Assembly: GCA_902570715.1 (NCBI GenBank)
Contig: CACFZB010000003.1
Coordinates: 1-51,343, forward strand
Direction: 5' to 3'
Origin: an uncultured Pelagibacteraceae bacterium
Lineage (GTDB): Bacteria; Pseudomonadota; Alphaproteobacteria; Pelagibacterales; Pelagibacteraceae
Length of the DNA: 51,343 nt
Each line of letters opens with the position of its first letter. The stretch's first letter is position 1. The translations under genes and the position numbers were made by a program. The notes beneath the pieces are model-generated. The model saw only the letters and a program-made list of their open reading frames with translations, was not told where the DNA came from and did no database searches. This document shows positions 10,406 to 29,026 of this stretch, piece after piece.

Positions 10406-10852
10406 ATGATGAAAAACTTTCTCCTTTTAATTTTAATTTTATTTTTTATACCATTTCATACTTTTTCTGATGAAACCTTCCTTTCATTAAAGAAAAATAA
10501 AGTCAATGTCAGATATGGTCCAAGTCTTGAGTCTCCAATTAAATATATTTATAAAAAAATTAATTTACCAATTAAACAAATAGATCAAAAAGAAAATTGG
10601 CGAAGAATTATAGATTCTAAAAATAATAGTGGATGGATACACTTATCTCAATTAAAAAAAATTAATTCAATAATAACTCTTGAAGATAAAATTTTATTTA
10701 AAGATCCCTCAAATTTTTCAAAACCATTAGCCAACATTAAAAAAGGAAGACTTTTGATAATTAAAAGGTGTGATAGTGAATGGTGTAAAATAGAAACTGA
10801 AAATTTTAAAGGTTGGATTAAAAAAAATAATGTGTGGGGGTTAATTAAATAA
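10406..10852 (+). CDS. Secreted bacterial SH3-domain protein
   Basis: Signal peptide then NVRYGPSLESPI...W...GWIHLSQL and a second degenerate repeat WCKIETENFKGWIKK. Confidence 0.75.
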   Translation: MMKNFLLLILILFFIPFHTFSDETFLSLKKNKVNVRYGPSLESPIKYIYKKINLPIKQIDQKENWRRIIDSKNNSGWIHLSQLKKINSIITLEDKILFKDPSNFSKPLANIKKGRLLIIKRCDSEWCKIETENFKGWIKKNNVWGLIK

Positions 10853-11444
10853 AATCTGCGGATAAAGATTTTATAGTTTCAGAATTTAATTTTGTAGAAT
10901 GAGAATATTGACTATGATCAATTCCTATTTCTACCATTGAAGATTTTTTTTTAAAATTTTGGATTTGTTCATCATTAAAATGAAAATGAATGAATTGAAC
11001 TGATGATGCCTTACCTTCAGCTGAAGTTCTATCAACATCCTCCTCTGGTACTGCTTTAATTATTGCATCATTAACTTTCAAATATACTTTTTCCTCGATA
11101 CCGCCAACTTTCCCTAAAAAAGCTGCTCTAGAAATTGGGTTATCTATCTCAAACATTAAAGTTGCTGTTAATTCTTTGCCGTTAGGAACCAAAGGGTTAT
11201 ATGCTAGTAACTCATCTTTTAATTGTTCGTCTCCTCCTTTTTCAATATATAACATTTCTTGTACCTGAGCCAACATTGTCTCAAAGCTTTCAAAATAAAA
11301 TGTTGCATAAGGTCCAAGTGGTATTCTTCTATTTTTTTTAAATTCAACAATTTTTTTTCTCAATTCTTTTCTTTGAGTTGTGTAAATATCCAACGGCATA
11401 ATATCTTCCTTGCTTATTATTCTTTTCTCACGGGGCATAATCAT
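10845..11444 (-). CDS. DUF3501-family-like conserved protein
   Basis: YTTQRKELRKKIVEFKKNRRIPLGPYATFYFESFETMLAQVQEML; position next to Fe-S oxidoreductase and rubrerythrin; family assigned from memory. Confidence 0.75.
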   Translation of the reverse strand: MIMPREKRIISKEDIMPLDIYTTQRKELRKKIVEFKKNRRIPLGPYATFYFESFETMLAQVQEMLYIEKGGDEQLKDELLAYNPLVPNGKELTATLMFEIDNPISRAAFLGKVGGIEEKVYLKVNDAIIKAVPEEDVDRTSAEGKASSVQFIHFHFNDEQIQNFKKKSSMVEIGIDHSQYSHSTKLNSETIKSLSADFI

Positions 11445-12772
11445 AACCTATAACTTTTAGCCATCAATTCGATAGGATGTAGTGCCTCATCATTTGCAAT
11501 ATTAGTGTCAGCTTCTAACTGTTTTAAATGTTTACCTGCCAAAGGACAATCAGATGCCATATATTTATTATTTTTTGTTTTTATTTGTCTTGCAGTTGGA
11601 CGGCCAACTTTCACAGCTAATTTATGTGTATCTTTCATAACACCAAACGTTCCCCCATGACCCGCACATCTTTCAACTACATCTATTTTTATATTAGGAA
11701 TTAATTTAAGCATATCTCTCGCTTTAATTCCCATATTTTGAGCTCTTGCGTGACACGCATGGTGAACAGTAACTCCACCATCTATTTCCTGTAAACCATC
11801 AGCTAATCCCTCATTGTTCGAAATATTAACTACGTATTCATCAATATCCATCACATTTGCTGACAATTTCTTTATATTTTCATCGTTAGGAAGCAAAAGT
11901 GGCCATTCAAATTTTAACATTAAACCACAACTAGCTGTAAGAGTGACTACTTTATAACCTTTATCTATCCATTCTATTAAATCTTTCGAAACTTTTTTGG
12001 CTTGCTCAACTACTTTTGGTAAATCAGCTTGTTCTAAGAAAGGCATTCCACAACAACCAGGATAAGCTTCTTGAACCTCAACCCCATTTTTTTTTAATAC
12101 TTTTAAAGCTGCAACACCAGTATTTTTTTTGTTAAAGTTTACAAAACAAGTTGAATAAATAACAACTTTTCTATCACTTATATTATTTTTATAATCTATT
12201 TTATTAATATTTTTTTTAAAAAAACTTGAAAAAGTTTCAGAATTATATTTCGGCAGTTGAACTCTTAAATCTATGCCCGCAATGATTTCCAATACTTTTC
12301 GAAAAAATTTGCTTTTAATGCTGGATAACCAATTTATTAGAACCGAAAACATTATTCCTATTTTTGAATTCCTATCTATTTCAGCTAATTGTCTGGGAAC
12401 AACAGGTAATTTACCCTGTTTTTTTTGTGCCGTTCTGTATCTCAACATTAAATGAGGAAAATCTAAGTCAAAATCATGAGGAGGAACATATGGACACTTC
12501 GTCATAAAGCACATATCACATAAAGTACAAGCATCAACAACAGGTGCAAATTGTTCACTAGATAAACTTTCTACATCCTCATTCTTAGACTCATCAATCA
12601 TATCAAATAGTTTTGGAAACGAGTCACAAAGATTAAAGCACCTTCTGCAGCCATGGCAAATGTCAAACACTCTTCTCATCTCGGCATCTAATTTTTCTGG
12701 ATTTAAAAAATCCGGATTTTCGAAATCTATTGGATGTCTAATAGGTGCTTCTGTGCTTCCCTCTTTGCTCAT
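11441..12772 (-). CDS. Fe-S oxidoreductase, GlpC/HdrD-like (two 4Fe-4S clusters plus CCG domains)
   Basis: CHGCRRCFNLCDSFP and CTLCDMCFMTKCPYVPPH; YPGCCGMPFLEQ and CAGHGGTFG. Confidence 0.88.
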   Translation of the reverse strand: MSKEGSTEAPIRHPIDFENPDFLNPEKLDAEMRRVFDICHGCRRCFNLCDSFPKLFDMIDESKNEDVESLSSEQFAPVVDACTLCDMCFMTKCPYVPPHDFDLDFPHLMLRYRTAQKKQGKLPVVPRQLAEIDRNSKIGIMFSVLINWLSSIKSKFFRKVLEIIAGIDLRVQLPKYNSETFSSFFKKNINKIDYKNNISDRKVVIYSTCFVNFNKKNTGVAALKVLKKNGVEVQEAYPGCCGMPFLEQADLPKVVEQAKKVSKDLIEWIDKGYKVVTLTASCGLMLKFEWPLLLPNDENIKKLSANVMDIDEYVVNISNNEGLADGLQEIDGGVTVHHACHARAQNMGIKARDMLKLIPNIKIDVVERCAGHGGTFGVMKDTHKLAVKVGRPTARQIKTKNNKYMASDCPLAGKHLKQLEADTNIANDEALHPIELMAKSYRL

Positions 12773-12830: not shown

Positions 12831-13247
12831 TTAGCTAATAGATTCTAAAGTTTTTTGGAATTTACCAGCGTGAGATTTTTCAGCTTTTGCTAATGTTTCA
12901 AACCAATCAGCAATCTCTTCAAATCCTTCTTCTCTTGCAGTTTTTGCCATACCTGGATACATGTCTGTGTATTCATGTGTTTCACCAGCTACAGCTGACT
13001 CTAAATTTGCTTTAGTTTCACCTATTGGCTTACCAGTTGCTGGATCACCAACTTGTTCTAAATACTCTAGGTGTCCATGAGCATGTCCAGTTTCACCTTC
13101 AGCTGTTGATCTGAAAACTGTAGCTACATCGTTGTATCCTTCAATGTCAGCCTTTTGAGCAAAGTATAGATATCTTCTATTTGCTTGACTCTCACCAGCA
13201 AATGCTGCTTTAAGATTTTCTTCTGTTTTAGTTCCTTTTAATGACAT
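12831..13247 (-). CDS. Rubrerythrin (ferritin-like diiron protein)
   Basis: FAGESQANRRYLYFAQKADIEGY, TAEGETGHAHGHLEYL, EEIADWFETLAKAEKSHAGKF; no C-terminal rubredoxin domain. Confidence 0.95.
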   Translation of the reverse strand: MSLKGTKTEENLKAAFAGESQANRRYLYFAQKADIEGYNDVATVFRSTAEGETGHAHGHLEYLEQVGDPATGKPIGETKANLESAVAGETHEYTDMYPGMAKTAREEGFEEIADWFETLAKAEKSHAGKFQKTLESIS

Positions 13248-13270: not shown

Positions 13271-13302
13271 AATATATAATGATTATAAATTATATGTCAA
13301 CA
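13271..13302 (-). promoter_or_regulatory. Candidate sigma70-type promoter for rubrerythrin
   Basis: Minus strand TTGACA followed about 17-18 nt later by TATATT-like -10. Confidence 0.55.
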
Positions 13303-13303
13303 G

Positions 13304-13320
13304 TTTAGAATAGTTATAAT
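13304..13320. promoter_or_regulatory. Candidate ICE (Irr-binding) box upstream of rubrerythrin
   Basis: TTTAGAA-TAG-TTATAAT versus TTTAGAA-N3-TTCTAAA: 12/14 matches, 5 nt or less upstream of TTGACA. Confidence 0.5.
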
Positions 13321-13349
13321 GTAGTTTTTAAGTTGTTGAAATTGCAGTA

Positions 13350-13778
13350 TTATTTTTGATTTTGATTATCACTCGCAACTTTTATTAAAACCTCGACTGA
13401 CTTAATTTTTTTTCCTGTTAAATTATTTTTTACATTAATTTTTTCAATAACGTCATTATCACAATCAATTAATTCATTTGTATCTTCATCTAGAAAGTGA
13501 TGATGGTGAGTTATGTTGGTGTCAAAATAGCTTTGGCTACTATTAATTGAAATTTCCTTAAGATGACCCTTATTTTTGAACGCATGAACAGTATTGTAAA
13601 CTGTTGCTAAGGATATTTTTTGATTAAGTTGTTCAGAAATATTTTTTGCAAGATCACTTATAGTGAAATGGAAGGTTTTATCTCTTTTAAACAATACTTC
13701 ACAAATTTTAAGCCTTTGTTTTGTAGGTCTCAAACCAGAGGATCTTAATTTATCAATAAATTCGCTGTTTTTAGGCAT
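13350..13778 (-). CDS. irr: Fur-family iron response regulator Irr
   Basis: LRSSGLRPTKQRLKICEVLF, SLATVYNTVHAFKNKGHLKEI, THHHHFLDEDTNELIDCD; irr-fabA-fabB-fabI synteny known in alphaproteobacteria. Confidence 0.88.
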   Translation of the reverse strand: MPKNSEFIDKLRSSGLRPTKQRLKICEVLFKRDKTFHFTISDLAKNISEQLNQKISLATVYNTVHAFKNKGHLKEISINSSQSYFDTNITHHHHFLDEDTNELIDCDNDVIEKINVKNNLTGKKIKSVEVLIKVASDNQNQK

Positions 13779-13783
13779 TCTTA

Positions 13784-13800
13784 TTTATAATAATTCTAAA
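13784..13800. promoter_or_regulatory. Candidate ICE (Irr-binding) box between irr and fabA
   Basis: TTTATAA-TAA-TTCTAAA versus TTTAGAA-N3-TTCTAAA: 13/14 matches, in the divergent irr/fabA gap. Confidence 0.6.
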
Positions 13801-13852
13801 CTTTATGTATATTATATTTTAATAAAATCAAGTAGAACGAAGATCAAATTTT

Positions 13853-14353
13853 ATGAAAAAAAACTCCTACTCATATGATGAGTTAATAAATTGTGGAAAT
13901 GGGGGTCTTTTTGGTCCAGGAAATGCTAAATTACCTCTTCCACCAATGCTCATGTTTGATAGAATTACAGATATTAATGATAAAAACGGTGCTTTTAATA
14001 AAGGTTCATTAAAAGCAGAATTAGACATAAAAAAAGACTTATGGTTTTTTGATTGTCATTTTAAGGAGGATCCGGTTATGCCAGGATGTCTTGGTCTAGA
14101 TGCTATGTGGCAACTAGTAGGTTTTTATTTAGGTTGGATTGGAAACCCAGGAAAAGGTCGAGCTTTAGGAGTTGGAACAGTTAAATTTACAGGTGAAGTT
14201 TTACAAAATGTAAAGTTAGTAAAATATGAAATAGATATGAAAAAAATTATGTCTCCAGGAGGCACTACAGTTGGCCTTGCTAACGGAGTGGTTTTAGCAG
14301 ATGGTAAAAAGATTTATTCTGCAGAAAGTTTAAAAGTAGGATTATTTAAATAA
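13853..14353 (+). CDS. fabA: 3-hydroxydecanoyl-ACP dehydratase/isomerase
   Basis: [35 protein letters not shown]. Confidence 0.97.
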
Positions 14354-27285: not shown

Positions 27286-28626
27286 CTATGCAACTTTCAA
27301 TCTTGATTTATTAACTTTCTCACCAAAGAGTGTATTTTGGTTACTTTTGATAATTTTTACTTTGACAATTTTTCCCACATCTTCATCATTACTATTAAAT
27401 ATAACTGAAGTCATATACTCAGAACGGCCAAAAAATTTATCGCCCTTATCAGTTTTATTTTCAGTTAATACATTTATTATGCTATTTTCTAAAGATTTAT
27501 TTATCTTTATTTGCTCATTGAATAATTGCTTTTGAATAATTTCAAGTCTTTCTAAGGTTATTTTTCTGTCGATTAATTCTAATTTTGAGGCAGTTGTTCC
27601 AGGTCTAGGACTAAATATAAAAGAAAATGAGTTTGAAAATTTAATCTCTTTAATTAATTCCAGCGTATCTTCGAAATCTTTTTGATCTTCACCAGGATAA
27701 CCTATTATAAAATCACTTGAAAATTTGACAGCTGGATTAGTTTCTTTTAACTTTTCACAAATTTTTATGTAATCTTTAACATTGTGCTTTCTATTCATTA
27801 ATTTTAGAATCTTGTCAGATCCACTTTGAACCGGTAAATGTACTAAAGGCATTAATTTTTTTGAAATACCATATACTTTGATTAAATCATTTGTCATATC
27901 TGTTGGGTGAGATGTTGTGTATCGTATTCTTAGAATCTCAGGAATTTTCTCTATTTCAAGAATTAGATTTGATAATTTATAGTCCTCATATTTATAAGCG
28001 TTTACATTCTGACCAAGCAAAGTAATTTCTTTAACACCATTTTTTGCAAGAGTTTTTGCTTCATTAATAATTTCATCAAATGGTCTAGAATACTCTGGTC
28101 CTCTTGTATAAGGAACTACACAAAAATGACAAAATTTATCACAGCCTTCTTGTATTGTTAAGAAAGATGAAACTTTTTTTGATGAATTTTTAATTCCATT
28201 AAAATAACTAAATTTTAAAGTTGCATCAAAATCTGTTTCGTCTATTTTTTTTTGTTTGTTTAAATATTCTTCAATCTTATTATTTATTTTATGATATGCC
28301 TGTGGACCAATAACAATATCAATATACGGCTCTCTTTTTAACATTTCCTCATTTTCAGCTTGTGCAACACAACCAGCTACAATAACAAGAGGTTTAATTT
28401 TTGACTCAAATTTCTTTTTTACTCTTCCAATCTCATGATAAACTTTTTCTTTTGCCCTATCTCTTATGTGACAAGTGTTAAGTAAATAACAATTTGTTTC
28501 CTCGATATCTTCAGTTTTAGTGAAACCAATCTTTTTTACTGTATCAAAAATTCGGTTAGTATCATATTCATTCATTTGACAACCAAATGTTTTGATGAAT
28601 ATTTTTTTACTCATTTTTTGTGTCAA
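27286..28626 (-). CDS. miaB: tRNA-2-methylthio-N6-isopentenyladenosine synthase
   Basis: FIKTFGCQMNEYDTNRI, EGCDKFCHFCVVPYTRGPEYSR. Confidence 0.96.
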   Translation of the reverse strand: MTQKMSKKIFIKTFGCQMNEYDTNRIFDTVKKIGFTKTEDIEETNCYLLNTCHIRDRAKEKVYHEIGRVKKKFESKIKPLVIVAGCVAQAENEEMLKREPYIDIVIGPQAYHKINNKIEEYLNKQKKIDETDFDATLKFSYFNGIKNSSKKVSSFLTIQEGCDKFCHFCVVPYTRGPEYSRPFDEIINEAKTLAKNGVKEITLLGQNVNAYKYEDYKLSNLILEIEKIPEILRIRYTTSHPTDMTNDLIKVYGISKKLMPLVHLPVQSGSDKILKLMNRKHNVKDYIKICEKLKETNPAVKFSSDFIIGYPGEDQKDFEDTLELIKEIKFSNSFSFIFSPRPGTTASKLELIDRKITLERLEIIQKQLFNEQIKINKSLENSIINVLTENKTDKGDKFFGRSEYMTSVIFNSNDEDVGKIVKVKIIKSNQNTLFGEKVNKSRLKVA

Positions 28627-29026
28627 CTTTTACACCATACAATTCTAGTTTATGATCAACTAATTTATAACCATGTTTTTCAGCAACTCTCTTTTGTAAT
28701 TTTTCAATCTCATTATCTACAAATTCTATTATTTCTCCTGTTTTAACATCAATTAAATGATCATGATGACCCTCGTTTAACTCTTCATATCGAGCTTTAC
28801 CTCCTTTGAATTCATGTTTGGTAAGTATACCTGACTCTTCAAATAATTTTACTGTCCTATAAACAGTTGCAATACTTATTTTAGAGTCAATTTTTGAGAC
28901 TCTTTTATACAATTCATCTACATCTGGGTGGTCTGTGGACTCAGACATTACTTTTGCAATAATTTTTCTTTGTTCAGTAAGCTTCACTCCTTTAGATAGA
29001 CATTTTTGCTCTATAGTTTCAGACAT
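28607..29026 (-). CDS. fur: Fur-family transcriptional regulator
   Basis: GVKLTEQRKIIAKVMSES, DHPDVDELYKR, SIATVYRTVKLFEESGIL, GHHDHLIDVKTGEIIEF. Confidence 0.92.
   Translation of the reverse strand: MSETIEQKCLSKGVKLTEQRKIIAKVMSESTDHPDVDELYKRVSKIDSKISIATVYRTVKLFEESGILTKHEFKGGKARYEELNEGHHDHLIDVKTGEIIEFVDNEIEKLQKRVAEKHGYKLVDHKLELYGVKVDTKNE

Follow-up and report, generated by a model that had tools for sequence, protein, structure and literature searches.

Irr regulators, ICE boxes and the control of peroxide-related genes by Irr are already known (PMC3413700, PMC7762939), as is the occurrence of katG in offshore SAR11 (PMC12636525). In Rhodobacter sphaeroides, Irr binds ICE boxes located before mbfA and ccpA, and the irr mutant is more resistant to peroxide (PMC3413700). 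For SAR11, the accessible part of a habitat study describes katG as present in most offshore Pelagibacteraceae genera and reports it as a habitat gene (PMC12636525).

We analysed a stretch of 51,343 nucleotides from an uncultured Pelagibacteraceae bacterium (contig CACFZB010000003.1), hereafter the window, in which irr lies between fabA and a rubrerythrin gene cluster. A preliminary description of this DNA had proposed that two ICE-like operators flank irr, and that Irr controls its own gene, the rubrerythrin cluster and possibly fabA. At this locus, conserved ICE-like boxes occupy a fixed promoter position, and the peroxidase cassette placed behind them is exchanged. The features of the window are as follows.

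10845..11444, minus strand: gene for a DUF3501 protein, cassette gene 3 (Pfam DUF3501, 6.9e-62)
11441..12772, minus strand: gene for a GlpC-like Fe-S protein, cassette gene 2 (Pfam CCG, 7.2e-13; NCBIfam GlpC-type models below cut-off)
12831..13247, minus strand: rbr, short rubrerythrin of 138 aa, cassette gene 1 (Pfam Rubrerythrin, 9.5e-31)
13273..13278, minus strand: TATATA, putative rubrerythrin -10, with a 16-nt spacer (core TATAT 98-100% conserved in 55 loci)
13273..13289, minus strand: candidate Irr box B, TTTATAATCATTATATA, overlapping the spacer and the -10 (11/14 to ICE; weak in the window)
13295..13300, minus strand: TTGACA, rubrerythrin -35 hexamer (mean column identity 0.98 in 55 loci)
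13304..13320, minus strand: candidate Irr box A of the rubrerythrin promoter, ATTATAACTATTCTAAA on the rbr strand (12/14 to ICE)
13350..13778, minus strand: irr, Fur-family regulator of the Irr type, 142 aa (Pfam FUR, 7.5e-23; IrrA, 2.2e-37)
13784..13800, minus strand: candidate Irr box at irr, TTTAGAATTATTATAAA on the irr strand (13/14 to ICE)
13808..13816, minus strand: TATAATATA, probable -10 of irr, whose complement may serve fabA
13825..13834, minus strand: TACTTGATTT, near-invariant element of the irr-fabA spacer (mean column identity 0.99 in 131 loci)
13853..14353, plus strand: fabA, divergent neighbour (TIGR01749 fabA, 1.4e-77, above cut-off)
28607-29026: second Fur-family gene, of the Mur/Fur type (best match 5fd5)

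The Irr-type protein and the boxes of the window

The protein encoded by irr carries the Fur fold, with 81.4 bits against a Pfam FUR cut-off of 23.1. IrrA and Irr were by far its two best NCBIfam models, both scoring under the curated cut-offs (128 of 150 bits for IrrA and 118.3 of 170 for Irr), which are annotation thresholds and not biological features; it is therefore named here an Irr-type protein, not a certified Irr. The HxH heme site (H92-H93-H94) was invariant in 137 of 137 Pelagibacter Irr proteins and in four outgroups. Residues H37, D86, H92, H94 and D105, aligned to the metal site of PerR (2fe3), were likewise invariant in the 141 Irr proteins compared (SAR11 plus outgroups). The N-terminal heme regulatory motif, which is of the Bradyrhizobium type only and not obligatory for all Irr, was absent from these 141 proteins, i.e. 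no Cys-Pro was found within their first 50 residues. At two of the PerR metal-site positions, the Mur/Fur paralogue has Glu where Irr has Asp. Since the PerR-type residues are also present in outgroup Irr, they do not separate Irr from PerR.

Two ICE-like sites flank irr, with the coordinates, scores and placement given in the preliminary description: TTTATAATAATTCTAAA at 13784-13800 (13/14 to the ICE consensus TTTAGAA-N3-TTCTAAA) and TTTAGAATAGTTATAAT at 13304-13320 (12/14). Each combines a canonical half (TTTAGAA) with an altered one (TTATAA), and this pairing is the form that the motif takes in SAR11. The latter site does lie directly upstream of a minus-strand TTGACA (13300-13295), as had been noted, with a gap of 3 nt. 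A third, weaker box was found at 13273-13289 (11/14 to ICE and 12/14 to the SAR11 consensus); it covers the rubrerythrin -10, so that the rubrerythrin -35 is flanked by two candidate Irr boxes. GATAAT-type Fur-box repeats were not recognised in the window sites, which are devoid of the G of GATAAT. These sites are ICE palindromes at promoters, matching at 12-13/14, and at up to 14/14 in other alphaproteobacteria.

Over the whole window, the sites at 13784-13800 and 13304-13320 were the only matches with at most two mismatches to ICE. With up to three mismatches, 23 matches were obtained versus 36 expected, i.e. no enrichment, and a match alone is therefore weak evidence. Both intergenic boxes nevertheless surpassed the AT-matched background against which the earlier claim had to stand: in dinucleotide shuffles, the probability of an equally good match was about 0.0008 for the irr-fabA intergenic region and about 0.004 for the irr-rbr one.

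Conservation and distribution of the boxes

Orthologous loci were drawn from whole genomes and from named SAR11 assemblies. Of the 131 distinct Pelagibacter loci, 119 had a box at irr (GTTTAGAAnnRTTATAAA) scoring at least 12/14 to ICE (null 0.8%), and the box before rubrerythrin reached this score in 54 of 55 (null 1.2%); both half-site pairs thus withstood footprinting across SAR11. In the irr-fabA spacer (131 loci), the mean column identity was 0.90 for the irr box versus 0.64 for unassigned columns; in the rbr promoter (55 loci), box A had 0.96 and the -35 had 0.98, versus 0.76 for unassigned columns. The geometry made of box A, 3 nt and TTGACA was constant in all 55 rbr-type Pelagibacter loci and in both peroxiredoxin loci. 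Box A was intact in 45 of 74 katG loci versus all 55 rbr loci. For box B, 71 of the 74 katG loci scored 13/14 or better, and 25 of the 55 rbr loci scored 12/14 or better.

Outside SAR11, irr stands directly upstream of rbr in 28 of 29 rbr loci from other alphaproteobacteria. When the spacers of these 28 loci and of four outgroup loci were considered, 30 of 32 contained a box matching at 11/14 or better, in most cases 3 nt ahead of TTGAC, and perfect 14/14 palindromes occupy the same place in distant alphaproteobacteria (L385, L390 and L404). These spacers indicate that box A is ancestral and that its position at the rubrerythrin -35 is ancient across alphaproteobacteria. No clear box was found in the irr-fabA spacer of a related SAR11 family or of alphaproteobacteria with a placeable fabA, the sole 11/14 match among those spacers being 225 nt from irr; the putative autoregulatory box is thus a Pelagibacter novelty.

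The box at 13784-13800 ends 5 nt before the irr ATG and starts about 4 nt past the +1 predicted from the conserved TATAAT. A Pelagibacter subclade carries an insertion of about 20 bp between the irr box and TATAATATA, on the fabA side; in this subclade the box stays 5-6 nt from the irr ATG while the distance to fabA grows. That the box tracks the irr start despite the insertion argues against fabA as a target. The possible control of fabA was therefore the part of the earlier proposal that had to be given up, as the box moves with irr and not with fabA, and as no clear irr-fabA box occurs in the related family or in the other alphaproteobacteria compared; from the sequences compared, fabA is probably a bystander. 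In the same spacer, TATAATATA has a mean column identity of 1.00 across 131 Pelagibacter loci. Together with TACTTGATTT (13808-13834), it is 99-100% conserved in these loci, with a spacing that is fixed in the loci compared by eye and that does not match one ordinary -35/-10 pair.

A genome-wide ICE scan allowing one mismatch gave no excess over the reversed control, so that the motif has little predictive value outside the irr locus. The strict SAR11 motif yielded 79 matches in 55 Pelagibacter genomes versus 31 in the reversed control; 53 of the 79 are at the irr locus and the remainder is at about chance level, i.e. the motif exceeds the control at this locus alone. Exact matches off the locus, in G000, G012 and G082, comprised three within genes and one upstream of leuA.

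Several individual sites were also observed. An exact SAR11-type box lies 12 bp upstream of a leuA-like gene of the window's genome (G000:C7:4068-4084, L188), and an Irr-type box precedes an aminotransferase gene, a possible further target, in G006 and G041 (L232, L266). Some SAR11 also carry an Irr-type box in the divergent promoter between 1-Cys peroxiredoxin and metallo-beta-lactamase genes: of 33 distinct SAR11 promoters, 19 reach at least 12/14 (null 3%), and other SAR11 have lost the box (L277-L306, L357-L375); no 1-Cys peroxiredoxin gene was found in the window's genome, which is 55%-complete.

The exchangeable peroxidase cassette

The slot downstream of irr is occupied by rubrerythrin-GlpC-like-DUF3501 (as in the window), by katG-hydroxylase or by peroxiredoxin, and the three cassettes have a common promoter plan, i.e. 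box A, TTGACA and box B. The gene following irr is other than rubrerythrin in about half of the Pelagibacter loci; when outgroup loci are counted as well, it is katG in 75 (71 assigned by pattern and four by eye), rubrerythrin in 59 and peroxiredoxin in 2. In the longer loci, the slot has the same flanking genes on both sides (fabA-fabB-fabI and SH3-moeB-dut), and the cassette was therefore swapped in place. Among 87 Pelagibacter genomes, rbr was found in 25, katG in 42 and both in none (p = 8e-10, kinship ignored); in most of the remaining twenty, the irr locus was judged to be absent from the assembly or cut.

The cassette type switches six times on the Irr tree. Furthermore, loci that share just 63-64% identity in irr have katG genes at 98-99% identity; between L076 and L160, for instance, KatG shares 99% identity over 464 residues and Irr 63%. 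Such near-identical KatG beside divergent Irr shows that the exchange was recent and that its boundary lies between irr and katG. The gene after katG (L076:6301-6897, L133:6247-6843) is aspartyl/asparaginyl beta-hydroxylase-like. In genome G104 of the related SAR11 family f2, katG (L211) lies on another contig than irr, yet a box is retained before it.

As the same putative operators precede katG or peroxiredoxin in other SAR11, the link between Irr and peroxide defence is firmer than first proposed. A search of the literature retrieved no report of an Irr-controlled exchangeable slot; it did not extend to the 2006 prediction of the Irr regulon, which is said to be the original one and due to Rodionov et al.

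Proposed mode of action and comparison with known systems

We propose that the Irr encoded between the sites binds them as operators. It would repress its own gene via the box over the irr start, and would control the next promoter via two boxes, the ancestral one next to the -35 and another that overlaps the -10. This promoter would drive a slot holding one exchangeable H2O2-defence cassette, and repression would be relieved by heme loading or peroxide. The boxes at irr and at the rubrerythrin promoter are conserved far beyond chance and the adjoining gene fits the Irr family, so the core of the preliminary description stands as a sequence-based prediction: we regard it as probable that the boxes are Irr operators serving self-repression and control of the resident peroxidase cassette. 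Should Irr bind them, action by repression is the reading that we favour with somewhat less assurance. A box about 4 nt past the predicted +1 of irr and a box B over the -10 are in repressing positions; box A, abutting the -35, could serve repression or activation. The weak points of a two-box model are that about half of the rbr promoters, including that of the window, have a degenerate box B, and that some katG promoters have a degenerate box A.

The main tension with the repression model is the rbr response of P. ubique, in whose transcriptome rubrerythrin rose 1.57-fold when iron was limiting and irr did not respond to iron (PMC2864753). This misfits simple iron-dependent repression and favours activation or a non-iron signal. 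Irr might thus be an activator at the peroxidase promoter, a box A dimer recruiting RNA polymerase at low iron or heme while the irr box would be autorepressive. The place of box A just upstream of the -35, invariant in rbr loci, agrees with this, as does the capacity of ICE to mediate activation or repression according to location (review PMC7762939). We nevertheless hold activation to be rather unlikely, because the box with the higher conservation at katG is box B, whose place over the -10 suggests repression, and because a rise of 1.57-fold is small and might be an indirect effect.

It is very improbable that the second Fur-family protein, and not Irr, acts at these boxes, even if this Mur/Fur paralogue is encoded in the same window, is close kin of solved Fur-family regulators (5fd5), and the core AGAATnATTnT is common to Fur and ICE boxes. 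Pelagibacter sfuC promoters, i.e. those of iron uptake, carry tandem Fur boxes (TTGATAATCATTCnCAA) that differ from ICE at the diagnostic GATAAT positions, and show no visible ICE. Family f2 has a Fur box adjacent to a separate ICE at rbr (L177, L178, L179) and at sfuC (L307-L336), so two distinct motif classes coexist; this arrangement suggests that rubrerythrin and the iron-binding protein may be under dual Fur and Irr control in f2. ICE-class boxes, for their part, accompany irr across alphaproteobacteria. Finally, the matches could be AT-rich coincidences or promoter elements devoid of a regulator, given that ICE scans at low stringency showed no enrichment, either in the window or in the genomes, and that each box partly overlaps core promoter elements. 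This we consider scarcely credible in view of the conservation in 119/131 and 54/55 loci against about 1% expected, of the perfect palindromes at the same place in distant alphaproteobacteria, and of the conservation of box A beyond the promoter hexamers.

Returning to Irr as the probable repressor, it is possible, albeit short of probable, that Irr in Pelagibacter has given up the breadth of a global iron regulator and become a PerR-like peroxide switch with its own autoregulatory box, running a single slot in which whole peroxidase cassettes are exchanged between lineages while the operators stay. SAR11, which rank among the most abundant bacteria of the ocean, possess very few regulators. 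For each SAR11 lineage, the arrangement predicts the gene that would respond to H2O2, and it suggests a possible reason why katG marks offshore SAR11, i.e. that it occupies the rubrerythrin slot. It also provides an example of operators conserved while the regulated enzyme is exchanged, and one protein with three short DNA probes would suffice to address which signal Irr senses outside rhizobia.

With the Irr of Bradyrhizobium japonicum and Rhizobium leguminosarum, the Pelagibacter protein shares the Fur family, the HxH heme site and ICE boxes (PMC7762939). Rhizobial Irr is a global iron regulator (PMC7762939). In Pelagibacter, by contrast, no excess of the strict motif over the control is seen away from the irr locus, Fur boxes stand at the iron-uptake promoters, and Irr has no N-terminal heme regulatory motif. 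Likeness to PerR (B. subtilis 2fe3, FUR-family 5nl9) lies in the peroxide-defence targets and in five aligned metal-site residues, including the Asp at B. subtilis 104, these residues occurring equally in outgroup Irr and hence not being PerR-specific. The katG habitat study, in its accessible part, makes no mention of rubrerythrin or of exchange at an Irr-box promoter (PMC12636525). In the accessible part of the R. sphaeroides report, mbfA is a membrane ferritin and not rbr, and neither a double-box promoter nor target exchange at one locus is described, whereas the common ground is the presence of ICE boxes before a rubrerythrin-related ferritin-like gene and a peroxidase gene (PMC3413700).
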